Source: Oscillospiraceae bacterium
Lineage (GTDB): Bacteria > Bacillota > Clostridia > Oscillospirales > Oscillospiraceae
Assembly: GCA_015067995.1 (NCBI GenBank)
Contig: SVLJ01000016.1
Location: 1-64,000 of the forward strand
DNA length: 64,000 nt
Reading direction: 5' to 3'
This document shows, one piece after another, positions 3,857-49,413 of the stretch (positions within the stretch are counted from its first letter, which is position 1; each line of letters starts with the position of its first letter). The translations under genes were made by a program, and so were the position numbers. Below the pieces are notes generated by a model. The model was not told where the DNA came from. It did no database searches and was given only the letters and a program-made list of their open reading frames with translations.

Positions 3857-3879
3857 TGGTTGCGGGGACAGGACTTGAA
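3857..3879 (-). repeat. tRNA-fMet 3'-end fragment (attachment-site-like)
   Basis: Twenty-two of 23 bases match the acceptor/T-arm 3' end, including CCA, of the intact initiator tRNA at 42707-42782, in the same orientation. Only the 3' end is present: no anticodon or D-arm follows. Such 3'-end duplications are the usual footprint of tRNA-targeted integrative elements. It directly abuts truncated IS200 sequence. Confidence 0.6.
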
Positions 3880-3912
3880 GTTGCCGACCCCAAATTTGAT
3901 ATGTGACAAACC

Positions 3913-4254: not shown

Positions 4255-4260
4255 TGACAC

Positions 4261-17342: not shown

Positions 17343-17375
17343 GTTTTGTTCTCCCTTCTTTGACTTACCGGTATC

Positions 17376-17405
17376 CCTCGCCCTGCCGCGGGGGGCAGGG
17401 CGAGG
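17376..17405 (-). promoter_or_regulatory. Strong leader hairpin before solute-binding gene 3
   Basis: A perfect 12-bp GC-rich stem (CCTCGCCCTGCC / GGCAGGGCGAGG) with a 6-base loop lies 34 bases before the start codon. There is no U-run, so mRNA protection or processing is more likely than termination. Confidence 0.5.
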
Positions 17406-17458
17406 CTGGGTTAAACCCAACATAAACCGCAAAATCGCCCCTGTCAACGGGCAAAAAA

Positions 17459-17498
17459 ACACCGCTGAAAGAGCAGTTTTCTTTCAGCGGTGTTTTTT
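17459..17498. terminator. Bidirectional intrinsic terminator after LysR gene 4
   Basis: Arms ACACCGCTGAAAG / CTTTCAGCGGTGT, 9-base loop, A-run before and T-run after. On the minus strand it ends the LysR transcript before the promoter region of solute-binding gene 3. Confidence 0.85.
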
Positions 17499-29509: not shown

Positions 29510-30619
29510 TCAGCTGACATGCTTCCGGCGGCGGCAGTCGCGTGCAGGGGCAGCGGCCACGGAAGCAGAGCCAAAACCAGTCCCGGCGCCAACGGGGATC
29601 CGGCGGCTCTGCCCCGCATAGGTGTGGCCAACAGGCCCGATGGCCGCCATAGCCTTCCGCATCGCTTCTTCCCGGGGATGCACATAGTAGTGCGTGGTGG
29701 TCGTGACATCCGCGTGGCCCAGAAGCCCGGAAACCGTGGCGATATCCACGCCATTTTCCACCGCCCGGGTCGCAAAGGTGTGACGCAGAGCATGATACTT
29801 GACATGAGGAAGACCGAGTCCTTCCAAAACATCTCCGAAATAGTGGCTCAGGTTATCCGGATCCATACATCCACCCCTGGAGTTAAAGATGATAAAGTCC
29901 TCTCCCGTCGGCTGCCTGCCGAACAGTTCCACGAAGCGCTCATACTGGAAGATCATCAGATCCTGCAGCACTTCCGGAAAAAACAGGTCCCGTTCAGACG
30001 ATTCCGTCTTTGCCGACGAAAACACCAGCTTCGTGCGCTGTCCGTACCGAGCCTCCGGATCATCCTGAGAAATTCGGCGCACCGTTTCGGCAATGTGGAG
30101 GCAGCCGCGTTCGAAATCATAGTGTTTCCACCGCGCTGCGCAGACCTCACCCAGACGCATGCCGGAGTAAAGCCCCATGGTAATGCCGGAGTTCATCAGG
30201 GACAGATCCCGAAACAGGAATTCCTCCAGGATCTTCTGGTTCTGGTCGCTCATAACATCGACCTTCTTGGTGGTGCAGCGCTTGTAGACGGTAGCCGGCA
30301 CAGGGTTCGCCGGCATAAAGCCGTCCGCTACCGCCCGCTTGCAGCAGACATCCAGCACCACGCGCATATTCTTAATGCTCTTGGCGCTGAGAGGGCCGCC
30401 GTCGCGGAGATTTCCGTGCGCAGCCTTCTCGTTCAGAAATGCCTGTACAACGGGCGTGGTCAGCTTGTCCAATCGATACTCGCCCAGAACAGGCAGAATA
30501 TGCTTGTAAAGATTGTCATGATAATGCTCATAGCCGCTGGGTTTGGCCACATGGCGAACATAGGTGGCCAACCAGAAAGCAGCCCAGTCATTGAGAGTAG
30601 GATTCATTGCCAGTGCCAT
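29510..30619 (-). CDS. Tyrosine site-specific recombinase (integrase)
   Basis: 369 residues, phage/ICE integrase family. The start is the ATG at 30619, six bases after AGGAGG. There is an N-terminal SAM-like core-binding domain (about 8-110), then the catalytic domain with all active-site residues visible: Arg155 (GMRLGE), Lys204 region, His276 and Arg279 in HALRHTF, His302 in LLGHADV, and Tyr311 in THYYVH. It looks functional. A hairpin at 30645-30678 precedes it. The upstream genes on the strand are the GHKL/nuclease-like module, so that module may travel with this integrase. Confidence 0.93.
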   Translation of the reverse strand: MALAMNPTLNDWAAFWLATYVRHVAKPSGYEHYHDNLYKHILPVLGEYRLDKLTTPVVQAFLNEKAAHGNLRDGGPLSAKSIKNMRVVLDVCCKRAVADGFMPANPVPATVYKRCTTKKVDVMSDQNQKILEEFLFRDLSLMNSGITMGLYSGMRLGEVCAARWKHYDFERGCLHIAETVRRISQDDPEARYGQRTKLVFSSAKTESSERDLFFPEVLQDLMIFQYERFVELFGRQPTGEDFIIFNSRGGCMDPDNLSHYFGDVLEGLGLPHVKYHALRHTFATRAVENGVDIATVSGLLGHADVTTTTHYYVHPREEAMRKAMAAIGPVGHTYAGQSRRIPVGAGTGFGSASVAAAPARDCRRRKHVS

Positions 30620-31367: not shown

Positions 31368-31368
31368 C

Positions 31369-32187
31369 TCAGATATCCACTCCTTCCTCGGTCCACGTGG
31401 CCGCCCGGAAATTGTAGGGGCAGCCATCAGGGCCGGTCAGCTGATTCAGGACCCAGATCAGCTTGAGCACTTCGGCGGGATGGTTCCGGGCGATCAGGAT
31501 GCCTTCCTCCACACAGACGCCATCGCGGACACAGTTGTCCCAGCACATGCGCAGTTCATGCGCTTTGCGATAAGAGCTGCTCTCCGCCTCGCACTTGTAC
31601 AGGGCCACCTTCTCCCCACGGGCCACAAACAGATCCGCCGGTGCCTGAATACCGTTGGCACACAATACCGCGCGATCCTCCTCCACGCAGGTCACGCCCT
31701 CTTCGACAGCCTTGATCTCCGCCAGCTTTCCGCGCAGCAGCGCCTCCTTGCTCGCAGCAGGAATCTCTTCCAGCTCACCGGCCTCAGCTGCCAGCTGCAC
31801 TTCGCTGTATTCCCACATCATTTTTACCACTTCACTGAAAGGCACATCGTTCAGCAATGCGGTTACGATGATGTCCTTGCCGCGGAAATAGTTAGCATAC
31901 ACCTTGGCTGCCTGATTCTGGCAGCCAAGGTTGAGATTATAGACATGGACCTCGCGACCGTCGGGGATGGAAAAGGTCCATGTATCGGGCTCCTCTTTTG
32001 CGCCCACATAGAACACCACCAGATCGGCGCTGTCCCAGTGAAAATCCGGGTCATAGTGAGGCGCATCCGGGGCCTTCCCGGCATTCAAATACGCCTGCCA
32101 CCACGTGGCATAATCCTCGGGCATGTTGCCTTTGACGACAGAGAGCACATGATCTCCCTGTTCGTCTCGGATCTTATGAATTCCCAT
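31369..32187 (-). CDS. Two-domain protein with inactive-looking PD-(D/E)XK domain
   Basis: 272 residues, ATG at 32187 after GGGAGGT. Residues 1-105 are shared with the next gene (30801-31367). Residues about 148-272 are homologous to the C-terminal domain of the GHKL protein at 32208-33677 ('PADLFV-RGEKV-LY', 'NHPAEV-KLI--LNQLTGPDG--YNFR'). In the partner this domain carries an E-C-K motif; here it reads K198-C-E200, so the catalytic triad is broken although Asp185 remains. This suggests a structural or DNA-binding role. The protein thus bridges the two other members of the module. Confidence 0.78.
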   Translation of the reverse strand: MGIHKIRDEQGDHVLSVVKGNMPEDYATWWQAYLNAGKAPDAPHYDPDFHWDSADLVVFYVGAKEEPDTWTFSIPDGREVHVYNLNLGCQNQAAKVYANYFRGKDIIVTALLNDVPFSEVVKMMWEYSEVQLAAEAGELEEIPAASKEALLRGKLAEIKAVEEGVTCVEEDRAVLCANGIQAPADLFVARGEKVALYKCEAESSSYRKAHELRMCWDNCVRDGVCVEEGILIARNHPAEVLKLIWVLNQLTGPDGCPYNFRAATWTEEGVDI

Positions 32188-32207
32188 ATCGCTTTACCTC
32201 CCTCGGC

Positions 32208-33677
32208 TCAAACCGCAATTCCTTCTTCTGCCCACAGCGCGGTGCGGAAGTTGTAGCGGCGACCGTCAGGGCCGGTCAACTGATTCAGGATTCGGATCAG
32301 CTTGACCACTTCGGCGGGATGGTTCTGAGCGATCAGGATACCTTCCTCCACATGGATACCGTCGCGGACACAGCCGTCCCAGTACATGCGGAGCTGATAG
32401 GTGTTCAGGCAGGAGGTGTTCTTCACCTTGCACTCGTACAGGGTCACCTTCTCACCGCGGCTCACGAACAGATCTGCAGGCACGTTGATGCCGTCTGCAG
32501 AAAATACTGCCCGTTCCTCCTTCACGATCACACCCTTTTCGGCCCCCTTGATCTCCGCCAGCTGCTTGCGCAGCTGGTGTTCCTTGCTCACCTTGGGAGG
32601 CAGAGTCACATTGGCCCGCACCCACTCGAATACCGTCTGGATCTTGGCCCCTTCGATGCGGAAACCGTTCTTGGCGGTCTTGGTGGCAGGCAGACTGTTG
32701 GCGTCATTGCTCTGCAGGTCAATCTGCACCAGGAAGGTGTTGTACACATTGTGGCGGGCGCGGCCCCAGATCTCCTTCAGAAGACCGTGCTCCACCACGC
32801 GGCCGTTGATGCGGATCTCAGCGCCGCTGGATTCCATATTGCCCACATAGTGGAGGTAAGCATCCTCGTCGGGGCAGATGTGTCCGTAGCGGCAGGAGAT
32901 GGTCAGCTTTTCGCCAAGATCCTTGTTGAATACGATCTCCTGATCCGGCAGCTCCACCAGGGTACCGGCCTCCCACTGAGGCAGGAGGGGCTCCAGGAAC
33001 TGGCTGTGCTCCTTTCCGTCGCTTTCCCAAATCAGGTTCAGGATCAGCTCCTTACGCTGCAGGATGGTGGCGTAGGTATAGCGCAGATGCTCGCACAGAA
33101 TACCCACCAGCTGCTCGAAGGACAGCTTGGTCTTGCCGCGCCGCCCCATGGATTCAAACACTGCCATGGGGCAGACAAAGCGGATCACGGTGCCGGTGGC
33201 GCCGAGGGTGCCCACCCAGCCCGTTTTATACTCGGCGGTCATGCCGTCGAAGTCATAGGGCGGCTTTACGGACACATAGTGATCGTACTTGCAGTCTTCC
33301 GCGGTACAGGTCAGGATCTCCCAGGCGCAGTTGTTCTGGTCCATATACGCCAGAGCGTGCTTCATACCGAAGCCGTGCTCATTCAGGGGGCTTTCGCGCC
33401 CCTCGGTGCCGGCCAGAGTCATGGCGTTGTTCAGATTCTGGATGCCGGTGCCGTTATCCTCCACGGTCACCTTCACACGGTCACCCAGATTGACAACATT
33501 GACTTTTACCTGACGCAGTTGAGTGCCGTCGCCAGGGTTCCCGCGGAAATTGGAAATAGAGTTGTCGATGAACTCGCAGATAGCCTGAGCTACATCTGCC
33601 AGATTGCTTCCCATGGTGTTCCAGATTCCCTTGGCCATAGGCATGTTGAAGATGTTGATAGATTCCGTTGCGGTCAT
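32208..33677 (-). CDS. GHKL (HSP90/MORC-like) ATPase fused to PD-(D/E)XK-like domain
   Basis: 489 residues. The start is the ATG at 33677 after AGAGG; the 98-codon upstream extension is rejected. The N-terminal Bergerat-fold ATPase is clear: N box EFIDNS (35-40), G1 DNGTG (74-78), G2 EHGFGMKHA (100-108). Residues about 365-489 look like a PD-(D/E)XK nuclease core: Asp402 (PADLFV), Glu415-x-Lys417 (LYECKVK) and Gln428 in TYQLRMY. MORC/MutL-like ATPases joined to nucleases are known from restriction-type conflict systems. It leads an operon with two domain-sharing genes and is divergent from a ribbon-helix-helix repressor. A phage-defence role is inferred, not shown. Confidence 0.82.
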   Translation of the reverse strand: MTATESINIFNMPMAKGIWNTMGSNLADVAQAICEFIDNSISNFRGNPGDGTQLRQVKVNVVNLGDRVKVTVEDNGTGIQNLNNAMTLAGTEGRESPLNEHGFGMKHALAYMDQNNCAWEILTCTAEDCKYDHYVSVKPPYDFDGMTAEYKTGWVGTLGATGTVIRFVCPMAVFESMGRRGKTKLSFEQLVGILCEHLRYTYATILQRKELILNLIWESDGKEHSQFLEPLLPQWEAGTLVELPDQEIVFNKDLGEKLTISCRYGHICPDEDAYLHYVGNMESSGAEIRINGRVVEHGLLKEIWGRARHNVYNTFLVQIDLQSNDANSLPATKTAKNGFRIEGAKIQTVFEWVRANVTLPPKVSKEHQLRKQLAEIKGAEKGVIVKEERAVFSADGINVPADLFVSRGEKVTLYECKVKNTSCLNTYQLRMYWDGCVRDGIHVEEGILIAQNHPAEVVKLIRILNQLTGPDGRRYNFRTALWAEEGIAV

Positions 33678-33773
33678 AGTAAGTACCTCTTTCTTATGTA
33701 TTATTGTTTGTTTTTTGTGGGGTGAAAGCAGGCACGCTATGAAGAATTTCCGAGATACATTCCGATCCCTCCC

Positions 33774-33839
33774 GTTCGTCATACTACAACAAAACACCGT
33801 GCAGGGCGTTGGCCTACACGGTGTTCGGGTATGACGAAC
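33774..33839 (-). promoter_or_regulatory. Nested leader hairpin, possible attenuator
   Basis: Outer arms GTTCGTCATAC / GTATGACGAAC enclose an inner stem AACACCGTG / CACGGTGTT. On the minus strand the inner stem is followed by TTGTTGT, like a weak intrinsic terminator. It sits about 100 bases before the GHKL start, well placed to control read-through. Confidence 0.55.
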
Positions 33840-34005
33840 TAAGGACATGGTCCACATCGCTTCGTTCTCCCTCTTGCGGTTTTCACCGAAAAAGGATATA
33901 CTGATCCTGCGGTAGGACTTTGTCCTGGTATAGGCGGCTGCATCGCCGATGCCACTGTGAGGGAGCGGCAACTCCCTTGCAGTGCTGCTGTTTTATTGTG
34001 CTCTC

Positions 34006-34478: not shown

Positions 34479-35822
34479 TCATCTATTCGTTCCTATAACT
34501 GGATTAACAGAGTCGCCGCGGATAAACCGGGCCAAACCAGAAATCAGATACAGCGGGATATTAAGAACCCCCTCACCGTTGATCTCGCTTTTCATAGAGG
34601 TCTTTACGGAATACTTCGGGCTGTACTTCTTGCGATACTCCGCAAGGGATCTGGCCTTCACGTTACGCTCAGACTTGACCTCGACAGGAACGATCTGCGA
34701 TGCGCACTGAAGGATAAAATCTACTTCTGCCGTATTGCCGCTGGACCAGTAGTACAAGGAATCATCTACTGCCTTCACCAGTTCACACAAAACAAAGTTC
34801 TCTGTAAGGGAACCTTTAAACTCCCTGTAGTTCGGAGTGGCGTCCAGAATCACCTCGTAAGGAAGCTTGGACAGTTTCCGCAGAATTCCGACATCCGACA
34901 TATACAGCTTAAATGCTGTGTCATCCGCATAGGAAGAAAGGGGCATAAAAGGCTTTTCAATCTTGCGTACTTTGTGAACTAGGCCCGCGGCAATCAGCCA
35001 TTCCAGCGCATCCTCCAGATCTTTTGAACGCCACCCTTTCTTGACGTGACTGAAGATAAACTTCGTGTTTTCCTTGGCAAGCTGTTCCGGGATAGAGCGC
35101 CAAATCGCTGTCAGTTTCGGAAAATCCTTTGCAGGCGCATGCTTGGCAAAGTCCAGCTCATAGCTGTTGATAATCGCCTGCTGCACACGCTCCACTTCCT
35201 CAATGCTGTTGGTCTTCTTCCAGACGTCCACAGCTTCCGGCATACCACCAGTAATGTAATACTGTTTCAGGAATGTGGAGAGTCTATCCGCGATCAGCTC
35301 CGGAAGCGAGTCTCCCTTTTGGAAATTGTCCAGATAGTCGGCCAAAGACTCCGGGCCGCAGGCGCGAAGAAACTCTGTGAAGCTCATCGGATACAGGGTG
35401 AGAAAATCAACCTTGCCTACCGGGAAAGACAGTTGCTTCTGCAGCGCAATACCCAGCAGAGAGCCGGCACAAACGACGTGGTACTCCGGCGCGTTCTCAC
35501 AGAAATACTTCATAGCGGTAAGCGCTTTTCCACACTCCTGGATCTCATCGAGAATGATCAGCGTTTTCACCGGCAGGATCGTCTTTCCCGCAAACAGGCC
35601 AAGTTCAAAGACGATCCGCTTGACATCATAGTCTTTTTCAAAAACTGTGCTCAATACGCTGGTTTCTTCAAAATTGAAGTAGGCAACGCTCTCATAGCAA
35701 CGTTTGCCGAATTCCTTCAGCAAATATGTTTTTCCGCACTGCCTGACGCCTTTCAACACCAGCGGCTTACGGTTCGATTTCTCCTTCCAGTCTACCAGCT
35801 CTGCAAGTAACGCTCGTTCCAA
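34479..35822 (-). CDS. AAA ATPase with DUF4143 domain (second copy type)
   Basis: 447 residues, AAA_14 plus DUF4143. The start is TTG at 35822, ten bases after GGAGG; the N-terminus fits the family from there (ALLAELVDWKEKSNRKPLVL). Walker A GVRQCGKT lies near 25-32, Walker B LIILDEIQE near 88, and the sensor VVCAGSLLGIAL near 116. The C-terminal nuclease-like core is TAEVDFILQCASQIVPVEVK (E-V-D .. E-V-K). It is only distantly related to the protein at 19161. It stands alone, on the strand of the GHKL operon but upstream of the RHH gene. Confidence 0.87.
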   Translation of the reverse strand: MERALLAELVDWKEKSNRKPLVLKGVRQCGKTYLLKEFGKRCYESVAYFNFEETSVLSTVFEKDYDVKRIVFELGLFAGKTILPVKTLIILDEIQECGKALTAMKYFCENAPEYHVVCAGSLLGIALQKQLSFPVGKVDFLTLYPMSFTEFLRACGPESLADYLDNFQKGDSLPELIADRLSTFLKQYYITGGMPEAVDVWKKTNSIEEVERVQQAIINSYELDFAKHAPAKDFPKLTAIWRSIPEQLAKENTKFIFSHVKKGWRSKDLEDALEWLIAAGLVHKVRKIEKPFMPLSSYADDTAFKLYMSDVGILRKLSKLPYEVILDATPNYREFKGSLTENFVLCELVKAVDDSLYYWSSGNTAEVDFILQCASQIVPVEVKSERNVKARSLAEYRKKYSPKYSVKTSMKSEINGEGVLNIPLYLISGLARFIRGDSVNPVIGTNR

Positions 35823-36140: not shown

Positions 36141-38864
36141 CTATTCTTTTCCTACGATGGCATCTTCTTCACTGCCCACACAATCCGCGACGATGCAGTC
36201 GATGCTGACCACAGATGCCATCTTTTCCGCGCCGCTTAATCTCATGGCTCGCACTCCCTGCGCCGGTCCGCTCACCGCCCGGACTTCATCCGTCTTGAAG
36301 CACAGGCACCTTCCGGCATTACTGCAGGCCAGGACATATTCTTTGGCCCGAACGCAGCCGATCAATCGGTCATTGTCTTCGACCTCAACACAGCAGACGC
36401 CCCGACTACCCCGGCCATGCGGCATCACAGAGAATGTGTTCGCCCAGCGAACCGTGCCCCCTCCGCTTTTGAAAAACAGATACTCCCCGTCTTCCGCATA
36501 CGGTACACAGACTGCCGCAGCATCATTGTCTGTCAACTCAATGCCCGCTATCATCTGACATCCGGTATTCTTGGGGCTCATCAGGTCATTCATATTCAAC
36601 CGCAACCCCATTCCCTTCTGCGTCAGCAACAGAACGTCGCCACCTTTTCTGCAAATACAGGCAGAGACGATCCTTTCGCCTTCCTGCAGTTCGACCAACT
36701 CACGACCAATTCTGGGCATCCGCTTAATAATCGACAGATCAAACTTTCGCATCTTGCCGTTGTTGGTAAGGCAAACGATGGCGCCCTCTTCCGCAGCCAC
36801 ACCGCTCTGGAACAGTACGCCGCCGAAACGGAGCGCCTCCAGAGTCGGTGACACACCCTCGGTTTCGCAAAGGCTTTCCAGCAATTCCCCGGCAGGGATC
36901 CTGAAGAGAGTTCCTTCCTGAGAAAGCACATAGGCCGCGACCGCCCGGTCCTGTACAAGGATACGCCCGTCATGGGCATCTGTCAGAGCAGTTCCCCGAC
37001 GATCCCTGCGCTGGTCAGCCGGCAAACGAGAAATCCTGCGAAGTCGACCGGAGCCATCCAGCAGGTACAGGTCTTCCGTGCCAGTCATATAGGCGTGTCC
37101 ACTCTCCGCCGGCAGAGGATCATCCGCCCCTTCATCCGGTGCAGTCTCACCTCCGGTATCTTCCGCGCAGCTCTCCCCGGCACTCTCTTCCGAATGACCT
37201 GCCAAATCCCCCTCCTCTGTCATCTCCGCCGCAGGAAGTTCCCGCAGAAGGATCTCCGCCCGGACCATCGGTGCTTCCACAGCAGCTTCCAGCACAGGCA
37301 CTTTTACCTCCGGGGCGCTCTCCACGAAATCAATCACCGACTGCGGGGGAAGAATCGTCATTCGCGTTTCTTTTGCTTTGTCCCACACCTCATCGCCGCA
37401 GCGCCACAGATCCGTACGCAGGCTGATAACATCCGAAATCTTTTCCCGCGGCTGGATAATCGCCTCTTCCCGGTGGACGGAGAATCCTTCATAGGTAATC
37501 TGAGGAATGTCTCCGCTTTCCGCCGCCGTGATCGTAACACGTACCCGGCCAGCCTTCTCGAAGCGGATCTCCACATCCCCGTCATCCAGGAAGAGCATGG
37601 TGCTCCCCCGGTAGGTATAGGCATGGCAGCGGCAAACCTCGTCCATGATCTGCGTAGACGGACGACGACTCATCTTATCGGCCAACGCTCGAAACTGATC
37701 CGGGTTGGAGAAGTCCGCTTTTTTAACATCCTCATCTTCTTCCTTATGCCCCATCACCGTATAGATTTCTCCCAAAGTCAACCCGCAGTACACCATGGCG
37801 GTTGCAAACTGATGGCGGCACAGATAGGCCGTCGCTGATCTTTCGCAGTCATCGGCCATTTCGGGGTTTTCTTCCATGTCCCAGTGAGCATGGAAGAAAA
37901 CGTTCTCCTCCACGCCGGCGGCTTTATACACCGGCTTCAGGCTTCGATTCAGCTCTTTCTGCGTACATCTGCAGGTACGGTCCTCTCCCTTACAGACAAT
38001 CGGCATCTCCATAACCGTTTCTTCCGAATTCTCGGCCCGCAACGCCTCTCTTCTCCGGAGGAGAACCGTCGTGAGAAATGTGGGGACGGGCAAAATACGG
38101 AATGCATTATTGGTTTTGCCGCCGCCTTCCACTTCCCGCGAATCCTGCTTGCTGACGTCATAGCGGATCAGCGCCCAATAACCGGGCGCCATCTCCTTCA
38201 AATGCTTCCACGAAAAGCCCGTCGCTTCACTGGTTCTGACACCCAGAAACAGCATGATCAGCGCACCCAGCAGTTCTCCCTGCTGTTCGCAGTTTTCCAG
38301 AAGAAGCTTCACCAACCGCAGCTCCACCTCAAGGCTCATGGACTTTTTGACCCGCACGCCCAGTTCGGCAAGCCGTCCCCCCTCCTTTTCGGGATCCTCA
38401 GACGCCTGATAGCGATCGGCCCATCCCTCGGCGTCCGGCTGGTACTGCGGCACTCCCCACAGAGTAACCTGCGTCAGGTTTCTCTCATACGCCTCCTCCA
38501 TCACAGCACGGATTACAATAGATGCTTCCGTAATCACATATTTCGGCGGTCTGCTTTTCAACAGTGCATCCCAGGCTTCCAGCAAATCTTCCTCTGTCAT
38601 GTCTGCAAACGCAATGGGGTTGACCAAAGGCAGGAATCTTGTCTCCATTACGCTCTCATAGCTGTCCCGCGTACTGTTCTGCAGGTTGCGATCTTCACGC
38701 ACCTCCGACCAGAGCCGCCTGTATACTGCCGCAAACGTCGGCTCTCCCGAAGGCGTTTCCAGGAGAACATCCGGATTGATCCACTCGCGTCGGCTCGGAT
38801 CACAGAATACATCTCCCTTCGCCGACGGCGCCCTCAGTCTTTTTCTCAATACATGCCCACTCAT
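36141..38864 (-). CDS. Tyrosine-recombinase-like protein fused to GyrA C-terminal-like domain
   Basis: 907 residues. The start is the ATG at 38864 after AAGGAGG, overlapping the upstream gene by 4 bases. Residues about 40-400 follow the tyrosine recombinase plan: core-binding region (40-140), box I LGVRTSEATGFSW (Arg210), AYLCRHQFAT (Arg350, His351; the usual first His is Tyr347), and VMGH (His373). The nucleophilic Tyr expected about nine residues after His373 is absent (KEEDEDVKKADF). An acidic linker (545-585) leads to about 590-890, where repeated beta-blades match the DNA-wrapping GyrA/ParC C-terminal domain: 'LLLTQKGMGLRLNMNDL', 'LACSNAGRCLCFKTDEVRAV', 'GVRAMRLSGAE'. I know of no such described fusion. 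Confidence 0.85.
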   Translation of the reverse strand: MSGHVLRKRLRAPSAKGDVFCDPSRREWINPDVLLETPSGEPTFAAVYRRLWSEVREDRNLQNSTRDSYESVMETRFLPLVNPIAFADMTEEDLLEAWDALLKSRPPKYVITEASIVIRAVMEEAYERNLTQVTLWGVPQYQPDAEGWADRYQASEDPEKEGGRLAELGVRVKKSMSLEVELRLVKLLLENCEQQGELLGALIMLFLGVRTSEATGFSWKHLKEMAPGYWALIRYDVSKQDSREVEGGGKTNNAFRILPVPTFLTTVLLRRREALRAENSEETVMEMPIVCKGEDRTCRCTQKELNRSLKPVYKAAGVEENVFFHAHWDMEENPEMADDCERSATAYLCRHQFATAMVYCGLTLGEIYTVMGHKEEDEDVKKADFSNPDQFRALADKMSRRPSTQIMDEVCRCHAYTYRGSTMLFLDDGDVEIRFEKAGRVRVTITAAESGDIPQITYEGFSVHREEAIIQPREKISDVISLRTDLWRCGDEVWDKAKETRMTILPPQSVIDFVESAPEVKVPVLEAAVEAPMVRAEILLRELPAAEMTEEGDLAGHSEESAGESCAEDTGGETAPDEGADDPLPAESGHAYMTGTEDLYLLDGSGRLRRISRLPADQRRDRRGTALTDAHDGRILVQDRAVAAYVLSQEGTLFRIPAGELLESLCETEGVSPTLEALRFGGVLFQSGVAAEEGAIVCLTNNGKMRKFDLSIIKRMPRIGRELVELQEGERIVSACICRKGGDVLLLTQKGMGLRLNMNDLMSPKNTGCQMIAGIELTDNDAAAVCVPYAEDGEYLFFKSGGGTVRWANTFSVMPHGRGSRGVCCVEVEDNDRLIGCVRAKEYVLACSNAGRCLCFKTDEVRAVSGPAQGVRAMRLSGAEKMASVVSIDCIVADCVGSEEDAIVGKE

Positions 38865-40348
38865 ACTGCATCCTCCTTATATTCTTCGATTGCACAACGC
38901 ATGCCATGCGGCGCGCGAACGGTTATTTTCGCACCTTCTTCTGCCATCCCATGAATCAGAAAACCATGGTTTACGGAATGTCTGCCGCCCTCGGCAGCTC
39001 CCGAAAGCAGTTCTGCCTGCCAACGGTCCAGCTTTGCCTTCTGATACATCAGAATCTGTTCGCTGTTCCAGTCAACGTACGAAATGGCAAAGGTATGCTC
39101 ACGGTCCTTTCCCAGGATCGCCGCGATTTCCGACACATTCATGCCGGCATTCCGACAGTAATACTCCATCGTAGTCCGCAAAAGCTCTCCGTGCGAGAGC
39201 GTCGGCCGATCCTTTCCTGTCAGGAAGCTTCCCCGCTCCGCAAACGGCAGATGCACGCCCTCCCGAATCAAGGGGTCCAGCGCAACAGAAAGCGCTTTCT
39301 TATATGTCTGCGGGGTCAGCCGTCCGCCTCCGGGTTCCCGGAAAAGCGGCTGGTCTTTTGGGGCACACTTTTCCGCGCGCAGCCGGGCCAGTTGCTGCCC
39401 CAGCACTTTTTCAGCCACTGCGGAGCAGGCAACGTTCCGGTAAGCATTGGCCGAGTGCAGCAGTCCCGTCATCGCCGCAGCTTCCCCCCGCTTCTGCTTG
39501 TAGGCTTTTGTTACCTCAAGCCAGGAAACCCAGGCGCTTCGCTTCCAGTCTCCGACATTCAGCGCGCACAGCTCATATACCGTCAAACCGGTCAATGCCT
39601 GAAGCTGCATGGCCGGATACACATCGGAGTCACGGCCGTTTTTCAGGCACGCATTCCAAAGCCCTCTCAACTCTTCCTCTGTCAGGCTGGCGCGCGCCAG
39701 ATCTCTGCTTGCAATGGTGGAAAGCTTTACCTTACACTCTCTCATAAGCGCTCTCAGGGGATTGTCCGCCAGCAGTTTGTCCAAAACCGCAGCCTCCAGG
39801 ATTCCCCCCAGAATCACCCAATAGGTACGTTCCGTTTCGCTGCGTCCCATTTTTCTCTTTTTGCGATGGGTGATCGGTTCCATAACGTCCTCCATCGACG
39901 ATTGGCTCGTGCAGTCAGAGATACGCAGATCCCCAAAGGCCGCACGGAGCTGATGATCCCAGATGTTCCAATACTCATCCGCTTTTCCGGCCCATTTGTT
40001 CAAGCCCTGAATCGCACTTCGGCTCAGCCGCACATACACGGCCATGGTCACCGGGCTGCCAGCGTCGGTCAGCTGGCTGCGCAGATCTCCGATGTGCGCA
40101 GCCGCATACGCCGCCATGCATGCTTCCACTCTCTTTTCAAATTCCTCCTTCGTCTCTCCGGCCCGGGACGCTGTCTGCTGCCAGGACTTCGTGAATACTT
40201 TTCCATCCAGGCCCAGCATACGCCAGTTCTTTTTCCAGCGCGAATCCGAAGTCCGGCAGGTCTGTTCCACAAGGAACGAAATCTCCTGAACTGTCTTCTT
40301 CTCTGCATGTTCATATACAGGTTCATGTACAGGTTCATATTCGGGCAT
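38861..40348 (-). CDS. Tyrosine-recombinase-like protein, partner of the fusion
   Basis: 495 residues, start ATG at 40348 after AAAGGAGG. The C-terminal half follows the recombinase fold, but box I is ALTGLTVYELCAL with Thr256 in place of the catalytic Arg. The second box is LLRTTMEYYCRNAG (Arg391 kept, both His changed), LGH has become LGK414, and a Tyr (Tyr424, AISYVDW) stands where the nucleophile belongs. The upstream part (80-230) is a helical core-binding domain. Its end overlaps the start of the gyrase-tailed gene by ATGA, so the two proteins are made together. It may supply the Tyr that the partner lacks, while the partner supplies the box I Arg. Confidence 0.8.
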   Translation of the reverse strand: MPEYEPVHEPVYEHAEKKTVQEISFLVEQTCRTSDSRWKKNWRMLGLDGKVFTKSWQQTASRAGETKEEFEKRVEACMAAYAAAHIGDLRSQLTDAGSPVTMAVYVRLSRSAIQGLNKWAGKADEYWNIWDHQLRAAFGDLRISDCTSQSSMEDVMEPITHRKKRKMGRSETERTYWVILGGILEAAVLDKLLADNPLRALMRECKVKLSTIASRDLARASLTEEELRGLWNACLKNGRDSDVYPAMQLQALTGLTVYELCALNVGDWKRSAWVSWLEVTKAYKQKRGEAAAMTGLLHSANAYRNVACSAVAEKVLGQQLARLRAEKCAPKDQPLFREPGGGRLTPQTYKKALSVALDPLIREGVHLPFAERGSFLTGKDRPTLSHGELLRTTMEYYCRNAGMNVSEIAAILGKDREHTFAISYVDWNSEQILMYQKAKLDRWQAELLSGAAEGGRHSVNHGFLIHGMAEEGAKITVRAPHGMRCAIEEYKEDAV

Positions 40349-40536
40349 AAAAGCACCTCCTTTTCTGATGGTCACAGCCTATCAGAAAGGGGGGTACGAT
40401 TCCGCATATAAAACTGTACCAAAGTGAGCTAAACCAAAATCATACAGGTTTCCGTATTTGCAGCATTGCACGCGTCAACGAGTTCATTTATACTGAATTC
40501 AGAAACTTTTTTAAACTTTGGAGGTGTACTAAATTT
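40349..40536. promoter_or_regulatory. Divergent promoter region of the recombinase module
   Basis: 188 bases between two divergent starts. It is clearly AT-richer than the flanking genes, with TTTATACTGAATTCAG around 40486. Exact promoter boxes cannot be fixed. Confidence 0.45.
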
Positions 40537-42360
40537 ATGGCACCATGCAAAAAAGAAGAAACGCGCAAAGAAAGAGCGCTGCGCCAAAAGAAGGACTCGT
40601 CCTGTCACATCGGCGCCGCTTTGCCGGAAGAAAAGTGGATGCTGCTCACGGAACAAGAGCGTTCAAAAGTAAGCTATTGGAATTGGAACCTCATCGTGCC
40701 GAAAGAGAACCCTCTGGGCGACAGTTATTTCTACCGCCAATTCGAAGCCGAAACGCCTCAAACAATGCCTTCAGGCGAGGAGGTTGAACAAGCGAAAGAA
40801 GCCTACCTCGAGCCATACGATCTTCTGTCCTTTGCAGACAGCAGCATTCAGCTGAAAACGACCATGGAAACGATTCAAACAGAAGTAAACGAAAACCTGA
40901 GCAACCTCTGTCTGAAGTGTTCTATCTATCAAAACGCCTTGGCCGGCAAAGAGGGCAAGCCGCTTTGTTTCGACGGGTTTACAAAAGGTTTTTATGTTCC
41001 CTTTTACTTTGCCATGCAGCGAACACGCCAGCCACGGTCTGACGCCCACAAGACAGCTCCGGACAGAATCATCCTGATCCGCGATCTGCGTTTTTTGGGT
41101 CACCCGGTCATCGTAGCCTTAAGGTATCCGAAGCCGCAAAACAAACTCCAAAGAGACCTGCTCCATTCATTGAATTGCTGCTACCCCGGTTCGGGAAAAA
41201 ATAGCAACCGATACAGCAAACGTTTGGGCGAAAGAATTGATGAAGCACTGATGCACGGCATGAGGCCCGAAATCATTGCCGAAGGAAGCGCGCTGCCTCG
41301 GGATATCATTTATCACTGGCAGGACAGGGAAACCCGAACCGCTGCCAGAGTCCGGCAGAAAGCAACCGCAAAATACAACCTGGAGTGCATGCATTTTTCT
41401 TCCACCGCCTTGTATAAGCACACAGTTATCCATCCTCACAAAGGTGCTCCCTCCTATTCCAGGGGATATCGCTTCGTCATTCGCCAGGAAGAGGGAAAAG
41501 CTCCCAGATTGACTTCCATCTACCCGGAATACGAATGGGCCTTGATGGAGAAGCTCTGCTACGGAATTCTCGGGTTTGAAAACTCCCGACGGCATGTACC
41601 AGACCGCTTCCCCCTGTCTCCGCTTCGCCTGTTCAATCTGGCCGTAGATTTCCTGTCAACTCCCGATAACCGGTGCTTTACGCTTTCTGTATTCACCTCT
41701 CCCGTTTTGGTCGCACTGGTTTTTCTGACGGTGCTGGATCCCAACGCCGTCTATATGGCATTCGACCAGCTTGATTCGAAATCCGCAGATTATTTATATG
41801 GCTGTTATGGGAATCTCCTCCGGATCCGGGAGCAATTCGAAGACAGCCCGTCAGAATTCATCCCCCGGGTGCTGCACGTCTTCCGCGAAGAATACTCCCC
41901 AAACACCAACTCCGTCTGGGAAACGACTATCATGGACTGGTATGGAACCTGGGATACCCGCGCCTATAATGCCGGCATTTACTGCCCCTGCTTTCTCACG
42001 CAGCCTCCGCTTCCGGAAATTTCAAACGCATTGCTGAGCGAAGACTCCTTGAATCTATCCTTCCCCCTGGATTCCGGTATCGCCGGAATGGGTGAACTGA
42101 TCACACGGCTCCTGATTTTCAACCCGGCTACCATGTCTGCCACCCCCTCTCCCGGGAGCAACGCAAACAATCAACCTCTGTCCACCTCTTATCCCTACCA
42201 ATGCAAACCGGACGGCACGTTAGACTACGAAAACGTTCGCCCCGGCATCGACATAGAAGACCTGAATAGTCTTTTGGAACAAGGCTTCCTGTTCAGTGAG
42301 AGAACAGACCTCTTTCGTATGAGGACACAGAATTCAATAGGAATCAGGGTGGAAACATGA
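40537..42360 (+). CDS. Unknown 607-residue protein of the recombinase module
   Basis: 607 residues, start ATG at 40537 twelve bases after GGAGG. No family is recognised. Residues 1-20 are very basic. A Cys pair (LCLKCSIY) lies near 125. An HTH-like segment (EALMHGMRPEIIAEGSALP, then RDIIYHWQDRETRTAARVRQ) lies near 236-275, suggesting DNA binding. The later part alternates hydrophobic helices (LFNLAVDFLS; VLVALVFLTVLDPNAVYMAF) without a clear membrane topology. It is divergent from the recombinase pair, ends about 350 bases from tRNA-fMet, and uses similar codons to the pair. It could be a target-site or accessory factor of the element. Confidence 0.75.
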   Translation: MAPCKKEETRKERALRQKKDSSCHIGAALPEEKWMLLTEQERSKVSYWNWNLIVPKENPLGDSYFYRQFEAETPQTMPSGEEVEQAKEAYLEPYDLLSFADSSIQLKTTMETIQTEVNENLSNLCLKCSIYQNALAGKEGKPLCFDGFTKGFYVPFYFAMQRTRQPRSDAHKTAPDRIILIRDLRFLGHPVIVALRYPKPQNKLQRDLLHSLNCCYPGSGKNSNRYSKRLGERIDEALMHGMRPEIIAEGSALPRDIIYHWQDRETRTAARVRQKATAKYNLECMHFSSTALYKHTVIHPHKGAPSYSRGYRFVIRQEEGKAPRLTSIYPEYEWALMEKLCYGILGFENSRRHVPDRFPLSPLRLFNLAVDFLSTPDNRCFTLSVFTSPVLVALVFLTVLDPNAVYMAFDQLDSKSADYLYGCYGNLLRIREQFEDSPSEFIPRVLHVFREEYSPNTNSVWETTIMDWYGTWDTRAYNAGIYCPCFLTQPPLPEISNALLSEDSLNLSFPLDSGIAGMGELITRLLIFNPATMSATPSPGSNANNQPLSTSYPYQCKPDGTLDYENVRPGIDIEDLNSLLEQGFLFSERTDLFRMRTQNSIGIRVET

Positions 42361-42704: not shown

Positions 42705-42706
42705 TA

Positions 42707-42782
<76 letters not shown>

Positions 42783-42793
42783 ATATGAAAATC

Positions 42794-42880
42794 TGGTGCC
42801 GGTGACCGGACTCGAACCGGTACGGTATTTCTACCAGAGGATTTTAAGTCCGCCGTGTCTACCGATTTCACCACACCGGC
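42794..42880 (-). tRNA. tRNA-Leu (anticodon TAA)
   Basis: 87 bases with encoded CCA, from GCCGGTG to CACCGGCACCA. The anticodon loop CTTAAAA gives TAA. A long variable arm (TCTGGTAGAAATACC-type) confirms a class II tRNA. It lies 11 bases upstream of tRNA-fMet in the same transcript. Confidence 0.95.
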
Positions 42881-43062
42881 GTACATATTTGCAAGGGTTA
42901 GAATACCATAGCCGCACGTCTTTGTCAATAGTTTATTGCAAAATTGCTGGTTCTATTCCACTTTTCCGAAAAATCTCTCCCGATCATTGTGCGATTCTAT
43001 GCAATTTCTCCCCAGTTACAGCATATATTAGCGGAGTATCCATTGCGAAGGAGGAGAGAAAT

Positions 43063-43134
43063 ATGAGCCTGTGCAAAATCCAGGACGTAGATGATCTGAT
43101 TTTTCAGGATGCCTGGGAGATCAGCCAACGATAA
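43063..43134 (+). CDS. 23-residue microprotein
   Basis: MSLCKIQDVDDLIFQDAWE-ISQR is encoded by 24 codons including the stop. GAAGGAGGAGAG sits six bases before the ATG, one of the strongest ribosome sites of the window, and a perfect palindromic terminator follows 5 bases after the stop. It is acidic and amphipathic. No family is recognised; it may be a small regulator or a leader peptide. Confidence 0.6.
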   Translation: MSLCKIQDVDDLIFQDAWEISQR

Positions 43135-43139
43135 TCTCA

Positions 43140-43165
43140 CAGCGCGCCGCAGCTGCGGCGCGCTG
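43140..43165. terminator. Perfect 26-base palindrome, convergent terminator
   Basis: CAGCGCGCCGCAG followed directly by its complement. It lies between the microprotein stop and the mnmA stop and can serve both strands, although only TCGCCTTTC follows on the plus strand. Confidence 0.65.
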
Positions 43166-43172
43166 TCGCCTT

Positions 43173-44231
43173 TCATCGAATGGTTCCGCCGCCCACGACG
43201 CGCTCACCATCGTAAAACACCACGGCCTGTCCCGGCGTCACTGCCCGCTGAGGCTGGTCAAATATCAGACGCGCACAGCCATCCGGCAGAGGCTCCAGAA
43301 CAGCCTCCGCCTCCTTCTGACTGTACCGCGTTTTGGCAGTGACACGCATGGGTTCTGTCAGTTCCGGAATAGAGATATAATTGACCCGCTCCGCGGTTAC
43401 CTCACGGGAAAACAGCGCTTCATTTGGGCCCAGCACCACCGTACCCGCCACCAGATCCTTACGGACAACATACACCGGTGCGCCGACACTGACGCCCAGC
43501 CCCTTGCGCTGACCCATCGTATAGCTCTCCTGCCCCTGATGGCGTCCCAGCACACGGCCATTCATATCCACAAAATTTCCCGGCTGCGGCCGGATGCCCC
43601 ACTCCCGCAGGAAGGTCATATAATCTCCATTGGGAATGAAGCAGATGTCCTGACTGTCCGGCTTTCCGGCATTGTCCAGCCCGCTTTCCTCCGCCAATGC
43701 GCGAATCATGGGCTTTTCATATTCACCCACCGGCAGTAGAATGTGCTGCAGCTGTTCCTGCTTCAACTGATAGAGCATATAGCTCTGATCTTTTCGATGA
43801 TCGCGCCCTCGCAGCAGCAGCCAACGGCCGGAAGCCTCGTCAAACGCCACCCGGGCATAATGTCCTGTCGCCAGATAGTCACTTCCCTGTTCCAGCGCCC
43901 AGTCCAGCAACGCGCCGAACTTGATTTCACGATTGCAGTCGATACAGGGGTTGGGTGTCCGCCCCGCCGAATATTCCAACACAAAGCAGCCCATTACCTT
44001 CTCACGGAACAGAGAACACAGATCCAGCACCGTATGAGGAATCCCTATCGCCGCCGCAGAGCGCTGCGCCGCTGCCGCTTCTTCAGAAAGGCCGCTGCCA
44101 TCGGGCAGATCGTTGCCGTGATGCAGCTGCAGCGTGACACCGGAAACGGAATAGCCGGCCTTCTGCAGCAGAATGGCAGCGCCGGCGCTGTCCACGCCGC
44201 CGCTCATGGCAATCACGACCTTCTTTTTCAC
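43173..44231 (-). CDS. mnmA: tRNA 2-thiouridine(34) synthase MnmA
   Basis: 352 residues; thiolates the wobble uridine of Lys, Glu and Gln tRNAs using a persulfide relay. The start is GTG at 44231 after AAAGGAG. The PP-loop ATP site SGGVDS lies at residues 10-15. The catalytic Cys is in NPCIDCN near 94-100 and the second Cys in DSQDICFIPNGDY near 192-204. The C-terminal beta-barrel ends QAVVFYDGERVVGGGTI. Full length and intact. It is convergent with the 23-residue microprotein and adjacent to two tRNA genes. Confidence 0.97.
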   Translation of the reverse strand: MKKKVVIAMSGGVDSAGAAILLQKAGYSVSGVTLQLHHGNDLPDGSGLSEEAAAAQRSAAAIGIPHTVLDLCSLFREKVMGCFVLEYSAGRTPNPCIDCNREIKFGALLDWALEQGSDYLATGHYARVAFDEASGRWLLLRGRDHRKDQSYMLYQLKQEQLQHILLPVGEYEKPMIRALAEESGLDNAGKPDSQDICFIPNGDYMTFLREWGIRPQPGNFVDMNGRVLGRHQGQESYTMGQRKGLGVSVGAPVYVVRKDLVAGTVVLGPNEALFSREVTAERVNYISIPELTEPMRVTAKTRYSQKEAEAVLEPLPDGCARLIFDQPQRAVTPGQAVVFYDGERVVGGGTIR

Positions 44232-44256
44232 ACTCTCAACTCCTTTACGAAAACGA

Positions 44257-44274
44257 GCCCGCGCTGCCGCGGGC
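44257..44274 (-). terminator. Terminator-like hairpin before mnmA
   Basis: GCCCGCG / CGCGGGC with a 4-base loop, then TCGTTTTCG on the minus strand, 12 bases after the stop of the kinase-like gene. Confidence 0.6.
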
Positions 44275-44285
44275 CCGGTATCTTC

Positions 44286-45095
44286 TCAATCCTGTTGTCT
44301 CACACGGAAAGCGCTCACCGGCAGGGCATCCGCCAAACCCAGCAGAGCATGGTTGAAACCGCCGGCATAATCGAAAGGAACATCCTTCACCATGGGGGTG
44401 CCGCTCTGACGGTCAGGGATGGCTACCGTGACACGGGTACCCTTTTTGGAATCCACCAGAATGGTGCCGCCATGTCTCTGGGCAATTCGGCGGCACAGAG
44501 CAAGACCAAGCCCCACGCCGCTGGAGGGCAGGCGCAGCTGGTCCTCAGAACAGGCAGAAAACAGGGCTGCCATTTTCTGGGAATCGATGCCTGGGCCGGT
44601 ATCAATGACGGTAAGGCGCACCTGATGATCAGAAATCACAAGCTCCACAGCGATACTGCCGCCACGGGGCGTAAATTTGAAGGCGTTGGACAGCAGCTGA
44701 AAAAGAAGCTGCTCCACGCTGTCACGATGAACTGCACAGACATGGCTCTCCTTCCGGCAGGAGAAGGACAGCTGCAGGCCCAGGAGCTCTGCCAGAGAGC
44801 TGCTCTGCAGGCAGATGTCCCGCGCCAGCTCCACAATATCACAATCCCGCAGGGGAAGTGTGTCGGATTCTGACAGATAGGCAGCCGCGGTCAGGTTGTT
44901 GGCCAACCGGAGAAGCTGATAAAAGCTCTGATCCAGCACGGCAGCCTGATGGTCCAGCTGGGCATCCTGCTCCCGGCGCTCCGCAGGAACCAGAGATGCC
45001 GCCGCCAGATGCAGATTGCCCAACGCATACCGCAGTTGAGTGGAAAGAGCCGGCAGGATCTTTGCCAAGAGGTCATCGCGTTCATTGAGTTCCAT
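44286..45095 (-). CDS. Sensor-less histidine-kinase-like ATPase
   Basis: 269 residues, start ATG at 45095 after AAAGGAG. The C-terminal HATPase domain is clear: N box LLSNAFKFTPRGG near 138-150, G1 DTGPGID near 165-171, G2 GVGLGLALCRR near 193-203. The N-terminal helices (PALSTQLRYALGNLHLAAA) sit where a HisKA dimerisation domain belongs, but the usual H-E-L-R-T-P phosphoacceptor motif is replaced by S-T-Q-L-R-Y-A, so autophosphorylation is doubtful. There is no membrane segment or response regulator next to it. A tail of about 45 residues after the ATPase is unassigned. It may be an anti-sigma-like or signalling adaptor. Confidence 0.82.
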   Translation of the reverse strand: MELNERDDLLAKILPALSTQLRYALGNLHLAAASLVPAERREQDAQLDHQAAVLDQSFYQLLRLANNLTAAAYLSESDTLPLRDCDIVELARDICLQSSSLAELLGLQLSFSCRKESHVCAVHRDSVEQLLFQLLSNAFKFTPRGGSIAVELVISDHQVRLTVIDTGPGIDSQKMAALFSACSEDQLRLPSSGVGLGLALCRRIAQRHGGTILVDSKKGTRVTVAIPDRQSGTPMVKDVPFDYAGGFNHALLGLADALPVSAFRVRQQD

Positions 45096-45264
45096 ATGCA
45101 AAGCTCCTTTCCTTTCAAACTGCCCGGTGATTAGCCTTTACAAAACCCCGGCAAAAAATCAGGCTGACGGGACTCCATTTTCAGCCATATGGTAGCAAAT
45201 TTTCGTTGCAAATACAAGTTTTTCCACAGGATTTGTCGAAATATGTCGAAGGAATCCGAAAAAA

Positions 45265-45294
45265 GGACTTCCGGAGCGGCTGCTCCGGAAGTCC
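45265..45294 (-). terminator. Terminator of hpf
   Basis: A 13-bp stem GGACTTCCGGAGC / GCTCCGGAAGTCC, 4-base loop, then TTTTTTCGG on the minus strand, 15 bases past the stop. Confidence 0.9.
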
Positions 45295-45309
45295 AGATGG
45301 TCTGTTCGG

Positions 45310-45849
45310 TTATTCCTCGCCGGTTTCAATGAGGCCGTAGCCGCCGGCCTTGCGTTTGTAGACAATGGAGAGGGCAGAGTCCTCGTTGTTGCGGAAGACG
45401 AAGAACTCGTGATCCAGCAGATTCATCTGCAGAATGGCTTCCTCGGGGCTCATGGGCTTGACAGAGAAACGCTTGGTGCGGACAATGTCAAACTCCTTCT
45501 CTTCCACGATCTCAAAGCTGTCATCCTCTACGGTGGGCAGGGACTCGCTGCGCAGCTTCTTGGCCAGACGGGTCTTGTTCTTGAGGATCTGACGCTCGAT
45601 ATATCCGCAGGCCGCATCCACAGCGCTGCGCATATCACCATCCGGGGCGGTTTTCTGGGCACGCAGCATGGTGGAACCGCTGCGGATCGTGATTTCAACA
45701 GAGCACAGGTGATCTTTCTCCACGGAGAAAGTCACCGCGGCAGAAGGCTCGTCCCGGAAATAACGGTCCAGCTTCGCCAGCTTCTTGTCGGTGTAATCTT
45801 TGATGGAGTCACGCAGGTTAATCTTCTTGCAGGAAAAGGTGCACTTCAT
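45310..45849 (-). CDS. hpf: Ribosome hibernation promoting factor, long form
   Basis: 179 residues, the long HPF form that pairs 70S ribosomes into 100S dimers in stationary phase. The start at 45849 follows AAAGGAG. The N-terminal RaiA/S30AE fold spans about 1-100 (INLRDSIKDYTDKKLAKLDRYF; VEITIRSGSTMLRAQ). The C-terminal dimerisation domain spans about 122-178 (IVRTKRFSVKPMSPEEAILQ, then MNLLDHEFFVFRN). Single-gene unit with its own terminator. Confidence 0.96.
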   Translation of the reverse strand: MKCTFSCKKINLRDSIKDYTDKKLAKLDRYFRDEPSAAVTFSVEKDHLCSVEITIRSGSTMLRAQKTAPDGDMRSAVDAACGYIERQILKNKTRLAKKLRSESLPTVEDDSFEIVEEKEFDIVRTKRFSVKPMSPEEAILQMNLLDHEFFVFRNNEDSALSIVYKRKAGGYGLIETGEE

Positions 45850-45978
45850 AGATATCGCTCCTTTCGTGTGACCGGGGGGATCGCCCCTCGTAAATTTATT
45901 ATAGCATTGCTGCCGGGCTTTGAAAAGAGAAAATACACTTTATTTGAAAAAAGTTCATATCCTTCATGCAGAAAAAGG

Positions 45979-46005
45979 GAACCGTCCGCAAGCTGCAGAC
46001 GGTTC
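45979..46005 (-). terminator. Terminator-like hairpin upstream of hpf
   Basis: GAACCGTC / GACGGTTC with an 11-base centre, followed on the minus strand by CCTTTTTC. It probably ends the transcript of the 54-residue gene, 112 bases further up. The rest of 45850-46117 shows no gene. Confidence 0.75.
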
Positions 46006-46117
46006 TAACGGGTGGGATATTGGAAAGCTTCCACATTCATGATACCGCACCGGCGGTAAAAAGGCAATGGGAGCTTTTGTCGTACCGGCACAGGTTTTGG
46101 GGAATCCTGTCGTCCGC

Positions 46118-46282
46118 CTATGCGGATGCGCCGGATTGCGCTTCCGTCTCCGTACGGCGCAGATACAGCTCCTCTGCCTGCTGCTGCGCTTCCATCAGGG
46201 AGGCACGCAGCTGTGCCAGCGTTTCCTCTGCCGCTGTCAGTGTGTTGAACAGGAAAATGTATTCTTCGGGCAAAAATGGCAT
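46118..46282 (-). CDS. Small coiled-coil protein (54 residues)
   Basis: The start ATG at 46282 follows GAGGAGG. The sequence begins MPFLPEEYIFLFNTLTAAEE and continues as a heptad-like helix (LAQLRASLMEAQQQAEELYL). Similar short proteins are common in the Oscillospiraceae, function unknown. It could bind another helical protein. Confidence 0.7.
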   Translation of the reverse strand: MPFLPEEYIFLFNTLTAAEETLAQLRASLMEAQQQAEELYLRRTETEAQSGASA

Positions 46283-46428
46283 ATCGTATCCTCCTCTTAT
46301 ACCATATTTAGGGGTTGCCTGTGGAACTATCATACTATATCGTGAATGGGAAATTCGTCGAATCCCGTCGCAGAGAGAAGATATTCTGCACATTCAGGGG
46401 AACAGGGAGGAATACGGCGGAAAAAGAC

Positions 46429-46455
46429 AGAACCGTGCGTAAAACGCACGGTTCT
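46429..46455 (-). terminator. Terminator of the nucleoside salvage operon
   Basis: A 12-bp stem AGAACCGTGCGT / ACGCACGGTTCT, 3-base loop, then GTCTTTTTCC on the minus strand, 17 bases past the stop of the last nucleoside hydrolase. Confidence 0.88.
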
Positions 46456-46471
46456 GAGAGAATACTGCGGT

Positions 46472-48366: not shown

Positions 48367-48437
48367 CTTCCTTTCCGGAAAAATTTCACCTCAGGGGACA
48401 GTTGCCGCCCGAAGACGGACGGCAACTGAAAGGTTTG

Positions 48438-49412: not shown

Positions 49413-49413
49413 C

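Follow-up and report, generated by a model that had tools for sequence, protein, structure and literature searches.

Telomere resolvases such as ResT and TelA have a nucleophile of their own and produce hairpin ends, and in some of them a tyrosine may occupy the His-II position, as it does in the protein called B below. Other tyrosine recombinases obtain the nucleophile from a neighbor. According to the available text of one study (PMC3646895), Flp and the SSV1 integrase (SSV1 Int) donate their tyrosine in trans, and whether the tyrosine is delivered in cis or in trans is a fundamental issue for these enzymes, which was addressed there with mixtures of engineered mutants, one lacking Arg-I and the other carrying a Tyr-to-Phe exchange. 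Recombinase genes also occur in clusters, as in the RIT elements (PMC8138268, PMC10214605, as far as their accessible text goes) and in the GInt (ginABCD)/SE elements, which the sections seen of two sources (PMC5385486, PMC10214605) describe as genomic islands with several tyrosine-recombinase-like genes, one of them degenerate. Among the papers listed in literature searches, largely of open-access work, none described a natural split tyrosine recombinase or a fusion of a recombinase with a pinwheel domain.

Here we analyze a pair of adjoining genes, A and B, in a 64,000-nucleotide stretch of DNA from an Oscillospiraceae bacterium, referred to as the window, together with their relatives in other genomes. 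Genomes, loci, and contigs are designated by G-, L-, and C-numbers, respectively.

Results

Gene B (36141..38864) encodes a protein of 907 amino acids in which a pocket-type recombinase is followed by a pinwheel resembling the GyrA C-terminal domain (GyrA-CTD), as judged from the open reading frame, Pfam, PHROG, and solved structures. The uninterrupted 907-codon frame described in an earlier, sequence-only reading of this DNA was borne out and lies on the minus strand; frame 1 of the plus strand contains stops in this interval. On the minus strand, the recombinase part (residues 36-410, 37635..38759) is followed by a middle part that is partly alignable with shorter B relatives (residues 411-505, 37350..37634), by the acidic linker that had been noted before (residues about 506-590, 37095..37349, net charge -19), and by the pinwheel with its six repeats (residues 591-893, 36186..37094).

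Arg210, Arg350-His351, and His373 are found at the positions named earlier and correspond to Arg-I, to Arg-II with the following His351, and to His-III; Lys250 is also present, and Tyr347 occupies the His-II position. As to the recombinase assignment, Pfam Phage_integrase, which had been suggested as a check, was not reported, and a PHROG integrase profile matched residues 38-377 with an E-value of 2.4e-10. A profile built from six B relatives gave a weak alignment with XerD (3.3e-4), and in profile-profile comparison the B profile matched complete integrases with an E-value of 4.1e-17. Two features had been missed by the earlier reading, namely the absence of the nucleophilic tyrosine, whose slot is filled by Phe385 in the alignments (codon 37710-37712, minus strand), and the partner gene A upstream. 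When the full set R-K-H/K-R-H/W-Y was looked for in one chain, the window B was found to be without the nucleophilic tyrosine and without His-II, and, lacking the catalytic tyrosine, B alone should not cut DNA.

The repeats of the GyrA C-terminal type in the tail were confirmed by Pfam DNA_gyraseA_C (PF03989), which matched at 3.1e-17 with 62.2 bits, above the cut-off of 27. Residues 692-887 matched the NCBIfam gyrA profile at 8.3e-19, far under the cut-off set for the whole protein, which is no surprise for an isolated tail, and among the solved GyrA C-terminal domains the best sequence match was 5ztj (3.6e-17). By eye, the six repeats were placed at 600, 645, 697, 745, 796, and 845, with a spacing of 45-52 amino acids. 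A single-sequence AlphaFold model, which served as a test of the pinwheel fold, had a mean pLDDT of 34.9, too low for use.

A search for homologues sharing the order recombinase then pinwheel led to three other genomes. The protein of G367, a genome assembled as a single contig, has 901 amino acids and is 42% identical to B over 857 amino acids, and its pinwheel is well supported (Pfam 39.3 bits, above the cut-off of 27). Evidence for the pinwheel is weaker in G295 (857 amino acids; Pfam 20.4 bits, under the cut-off) and weakest in G373 (1071 amino acids), where Pfam DNA_gyraseA_C gave no match and a profile of our own matched with an E-value of 7.8e-5, above 500 shuffles. An assembly join or frameshift in B was ruled out by this recurrence in three genomes, one of them a single contig. 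A GyrA or ParC gene misread as a recombinase was ruled out as well, because the GyrA profiles match the tail only and the N-terminal half resembles integrases. The presence of a recombinase-type half and a gyrase-type pinwheel in one uninterrupted frame that recurs in relatives is thus supported, and we have hardly any doubt that the fusion is real.

The pinwheel occurs in 4 of 25 B genes; the frames of the other 21 (299-656 amino acids) are too short for a recombinase and a pinwheel, which makes the pinwheel an optional add-on. No GyrA box was found in the four pinwheels, with only RGSRG in that of the window, and the strict pattern itself was present in only 9 of 18 GyrA/ParC-type loci when the longest frame of each locus was used as control, which makes this a weak test. 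Because no GyrA box was found, the pinwheel, which in the window is near neutral (net -4), may be nearer to a ParC-type than to a GyrA-type tail. Judged from its sequence, it probably serves as an additional arm for DNA binding; the wrapping of the substrate DNA or sensing of its supercoiling that the earlier reading had proposed would be possible roles.

Gene A (38861..40375, minus strand) lies upstream of B, overlaps it by 4 bp, and encodes a nucleophile-type recombinase of 504 amino acids. It matched a PHROG integrase profile at 7.6e-14 and had no Pfam match at 1e-3; its profile matched complete integrases with an E-value of 8.7e-15. By these profile comparisons and PHROG, both A and B are homologous to tyrosine recombinases over the core-binding and catalytic domains. 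In the alignments, A keeps Tyr433 (39077-39079) and Arg400, both among the eight invariant columns of alignment A6, and has Thr265 at Arg-I and Lys423 at His-III. In the same search for a full catalytic set, the window A was thus without Arg-I and His-III, and no lysine aligned.

To learn about their distribution, relatives were collected at several taxonomic levels. The N-terminal 588 residues of B matched at least 6 of 394 genomes in the order-level search (E<=1e-6), the window's own included, and a repeat with a profile again matched at least 6 of the 394. At least 17 of 400 genomes matched in the family search (1e-10) and at least 2 of 391, one being the window's own, in the class search; these rates are lower bounds, as the order, family, and class searches scored no more than three or four candidates per genome. 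The search in the family of G295 yielded 4 of 87 genomes (1e-15), and that in the genus of G367 yielded 1 of 64, G367 itself. One Aristaeella lactis plasmid was added to the collected B set; its A and B homologues (WP_084095647.1 and WP_084095646.1) are annotated as hypothetical. The pair set does not include two matches of the family search, G571 and G547, the latter of which reads as an ordinary complete integrase. In tblastn searches, one shorter B relative matched one plasmid and no phage, and another matched neither phages nor plasmids; B queries had no match in the genome_contigs and viral_contigs collections. A phage or plasmid origin of the fusion was rejected, because tblastn with the fusion returned matches to its tail only, two among 50,697 phage records and one among 72,556 plasmid records.

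Among the 25 B genes, L100 and L103 are near-identical and L112 is close to them. The A genes were identified by their position next to B, with a profile of A as second guide and no catalytic-pocket profile, and are readable in the catalytic region at 21 of the 25 B loci. At L102, only a truncated A is present. Three B genes are without a recognized A: in G787 (L075), the contig end truncates the neighbor upstream of B, which gave no match to the A profile; in G794 (L114), the B locus starts at the contig end; and in G373 C14 (L109), B is itself truncated and has no partner. The A gene is in two frames in G367, the nearest relative, and in G373 C17 and G133; it ends early in G739, and in G640 an in-frame stop interrupts it ahead of the catalytic region.

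Catalytic positions were placed by profile-profile alignments. All 24 B genes readable at Arg-I keep it, and the lysine, Arg-II, and His-III are present in all 25, a conservation that is partly selected because the B rows were gathered with a profile containing the pocket residues. All 25 have a tyrosine at the His-II position. The nucleophile slot, read in the Phe385 column because the column taken from a canonical integrase is shifted for B, holds Phe in 11, Tyr in 8, Val in 2, Leu in 2, Lys in 1, and Ile in 1 (on an earlier set of 24 rows, Phe 11 and Tyr 7, with the other six unchanged). The slot is therefore not a tyrosine in 17 of 25 genes; the eight with tyrosine include the pinwheel-bearing G295, and both genes with valine have a tyrosine one residue before the slot. 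The A genes show the complementary pattern, with the tyrosine in 21 of 21, an arginine at Arg-I in none, an arginine at Arg-II in 8, and a histidine at His-III in 2 (L100 and L103); no lysine aligned, in a region where the A alignment is poor. A check with an A-side profile over 18, 11, and 118 genomes yielded two new pairs, in G403 and G492, in which, by eye, A has the tyrosine and neither Arg-I nor His-III, and B has Arg, Lys, Tyr, Arg, and His and a slot without tyrosine.

Two gene orders exist among the loci, A then B (the window type) and B then A, and the gene ends overlap or adjoin in most of them. The residue pattern is the same in both groups, at 22-48% identity to the window proteins. 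In place of a pinwheel on B, other branches (G007, G331, and Aristaeella) have an extension of about 600 residues on A; such N-terminally extended A-type proteins lie at L034 7613-10843, L033 2150-5500, and L077 3841-6936, and the two that were scanned (L034 and L077) had no Pfam match.

In a tree of 53 proteins, from which broken and duplicate rows had been removed beforehand, A, B, and the complete integrases formed three groups (supports 95/92, 97/91, and 100/98), with several A branches long and flagged. The distance matrices of A and B are correlated over 18 loci (r=0.87, above all 5000 permutations), and within each gene-order group (0.86 and 0.88, values that about 1 and 4 of 3000 permutations reached). 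Distances of the complete integrases correlate with those of B (r=0.81, n=7) and of A (r=0.79, n=7), so that the A-B correlation alone does not single out the A-B pair.

The complete integrase of the window (29510..30619, minus strand, 369 amino acids) lies about 5.5 kb downstream of B and has all six catalytic residues. Its relatives stand beside the pairs of G367 (63% identical) and G373 (62% identical), and across the family, which also has a member next to the B of G787, identities are 51-63%. By profile, 9 of the 25 loci have a complete integrase near B, and three others gave matches that were weaker or covered only part; none was found at 13 of 25 loci with 4-50 kb of DNA each, G295 with over 50 kb included. 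Eight complete integrases near B genes, identified by searching with a complete-integrase profile, keep all six residues. The GInt/SE layout of two complete recombinases and a degenerate one close together was not seen in the window, which has one complete integrase.

The right junction of the element is exact and coincides with the 3' end of a tRNA-Met gene (CAT, 42707..42782, minus strand), with a tRNA-Leu gene (TAA, 42794..42880, minus strand) on the host side. Contig C30 of the same assembly (G000) carries a second allele of the host flank, 90.7% alike over 42706-50202, whose match stops exactly at the tRNA-Met 3' end and gives way to different DNA. The host region 42706-52018 has an about 91-95% identical second copy at L090 (G000:C30), which perhaps reflects two strains in one assembly together with a tRNA-Met hotspot. 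On the left, a 23-nucleotide copy of the tRNA-Met 3' end with one mismatch (3857..3879, minus strand) is a candidate attachment remnant; 100 shuffles gave 0 matches. We regard the A/B element as a putative mobile island inserted at tRNA-Met, its left end being a candidate only; no empty site was seen. The segment from 4 to 19 kb, inside this candidate end, holds transporter, regulator, and catabolic genes, which makes the placement of the left end tentative. A tRNA-Met gene is also near the pairs of G373 and G295; none was found within the 37 kb examined around that of G367.

Between A and the tRNA, a divergent gene of 607 amino acids (40537..42360, plus strand) has a distantly related counterpart, 22% identical, at the corresponding position in G373. 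Downstream of B lie an AAA_14/DUF4143 ATPase (34479..35822, minus strand; PADLOC candidate PDC-S01, 3.4e-175) and a HATPase-domain protein (32208..33971, minus strand), which is also found beside the G367 pair. A second AAA_14 ATPase, at 26746-28569, matches the same PADLOC candidate defense family PDC-S01. Through a 300-bp direct repeat (76%) at 31368-31667 and 32207-32506, a small gene of its own carries another copy of the C-terminal portion of the HATPase protein. The window further encodes three paralogous SBP_bac_5 solute-binding proteins (455-2260, 4466-6208, and 15597-17462), and the stretch 3880-4260 adjoining the tRNA-Met fragment is a possible remnant of an IS200/IS605-like transposase. 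In G007 (L097), tRNA-Met 3' ends at 4537-4559 and 9787-9809, about 5 kb apart, surround a small possible element.

Discussion

That B keeps the pocket, with its residues for phosphate binding and for acid/base chemistry, without the tyrosine and A keeps the tyrosine without Arg-I and His-III is most economically explained by a split active site, and we consider it probable, on the residue patterns, that A and B each supply half of a heteromeric tyrosine recombinase, with the active site distributed over both proteins. In such an enzyme, A and B would bind neighboring half-sites, and the tyrosine-bearing C-terminal segment of A would swing into the pocket of B, giving cleavage in trans as in Flp and the SSV1 integrase. 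Neither protein would cut alone, so that recombination would be licensed by the A-B pair, and the pinwheel of B would act as an accessory DNA-binding arm. We lean only slightly towards the fuller proposal of an obligate natural two-gene recombinase that takes its tyrosine from one protein and its pocket from the other, and in which the pinwheel of one branch ties recombination to DNA shape.

Several observations count against a split site. A tyrosine in the slot of eight B genes, or one residue away in two more, could allow some B proteins to cut in cis, and the interrupted A genes, the B genes without A, and the complete integrase in the island and near other B genes, which could be the catalyst, point in the same direction. 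The strongest rival, a three-recombinase element like GInt or SE, assigns the chemistry to the complete integrase; A and B would be paralogues without catalytic activity that bind DNA and thereby shape the complex or direct it, a role that has been proposed for GinC/Tfp. One family of complete integrases accompanies A/B in the window, G367, and G373 as well as B in G787, and it is co-inherited with both proteins; moreover, GInt is described in the portion available of PMC5385486 as needing three integrases and a small protein, with GinC lacking the first arginine, and in that of PMC10214605 Tfp/GinC is without the RHRY motif. A structural B, however, need not keep four pocket residues, nor a structural A its tyrosine in 21 of 21 loci, and these are kept also where a complete integrase was not found, so this explanation accounts for the A/B family less well than a split site does, and we hold it to be unlikely, if still to be taken seriously.

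Much less probable is a self-sufficient B that uses another tyrosine, for instance the invariant Tyr347, with A as a decayed duplicate. The tyrosine at the His-II position of all 25 B proteins would suit this idea, but A would then lack a reason to keep its own tyrosine throughout, and the His-II position, three residues before Arg-II, is in the pocket and not on the mobile C-terminal segment. The interrupted A genes of G367, G373 C17, G133, G739, and G640 could also suggest that both proteins are decaying relics and that the pattern arose by chance loss after duplication. We find this the least credible of the explanations, as both gene-order groups retain and lose the same residues, at identities of 22-48% to the window proteins, and as most loci preserve gene ends that overlap or adjoin.

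If the active site is indeed split, the A/B family would be a natural, fixed form of the laboratory half-site complementation test, and, with nucleophile and pocket already in separate genes, the question of cis or trans delivery would become directly testable. It would also explain a set of unannotated genes of Clostridia and could provide a recombinase that stays inactive as long as one of its two parts is missing. The joining of a pinwheel to B is a novelty of its own, and a rarer one.

The comparison with described systems helps to place the locus. Telomere resolvases make hairpins, and the A/B loci give no sign of hairpin ends. The RIT elements share the clustering of recombinase genes, but in the archetype all three recombinases have the catalytic tyrosine, according to the accessible parts of PMC8138268 and PMC10214605, whereas 17 of 25 B genes are without it in the slot. 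GInt/SE elements resemble the A/B islands in their several recombinase-like genes; in the text seen of PMC5385486 and PMC10214605 they keep two recombinases with the catalytic motif and no pinwheel is mentioned, whereas neither A nor B is complete and the two complement each other. The tail of B shares with the GyrA/ParC C-terminal pinwheel (PF03989) six repeats of about 50 amino acids and significant matches to the profile and to the sequences of solved structures, but it is near neutral, is without a detected GyrA box, and sits on a recombinase instead of a topoisomerase core. The closest likeness in mechanism would be to Flp and the SSV1 integrase, whose active site is completed by the tyrosine of a neighboring subunit. 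In these enzymes, as far as the available text of PMC3646895 describes them, both halves belong to one protein, whereas A and B resemble the two mutants of that study, apparently fixed as two genes.
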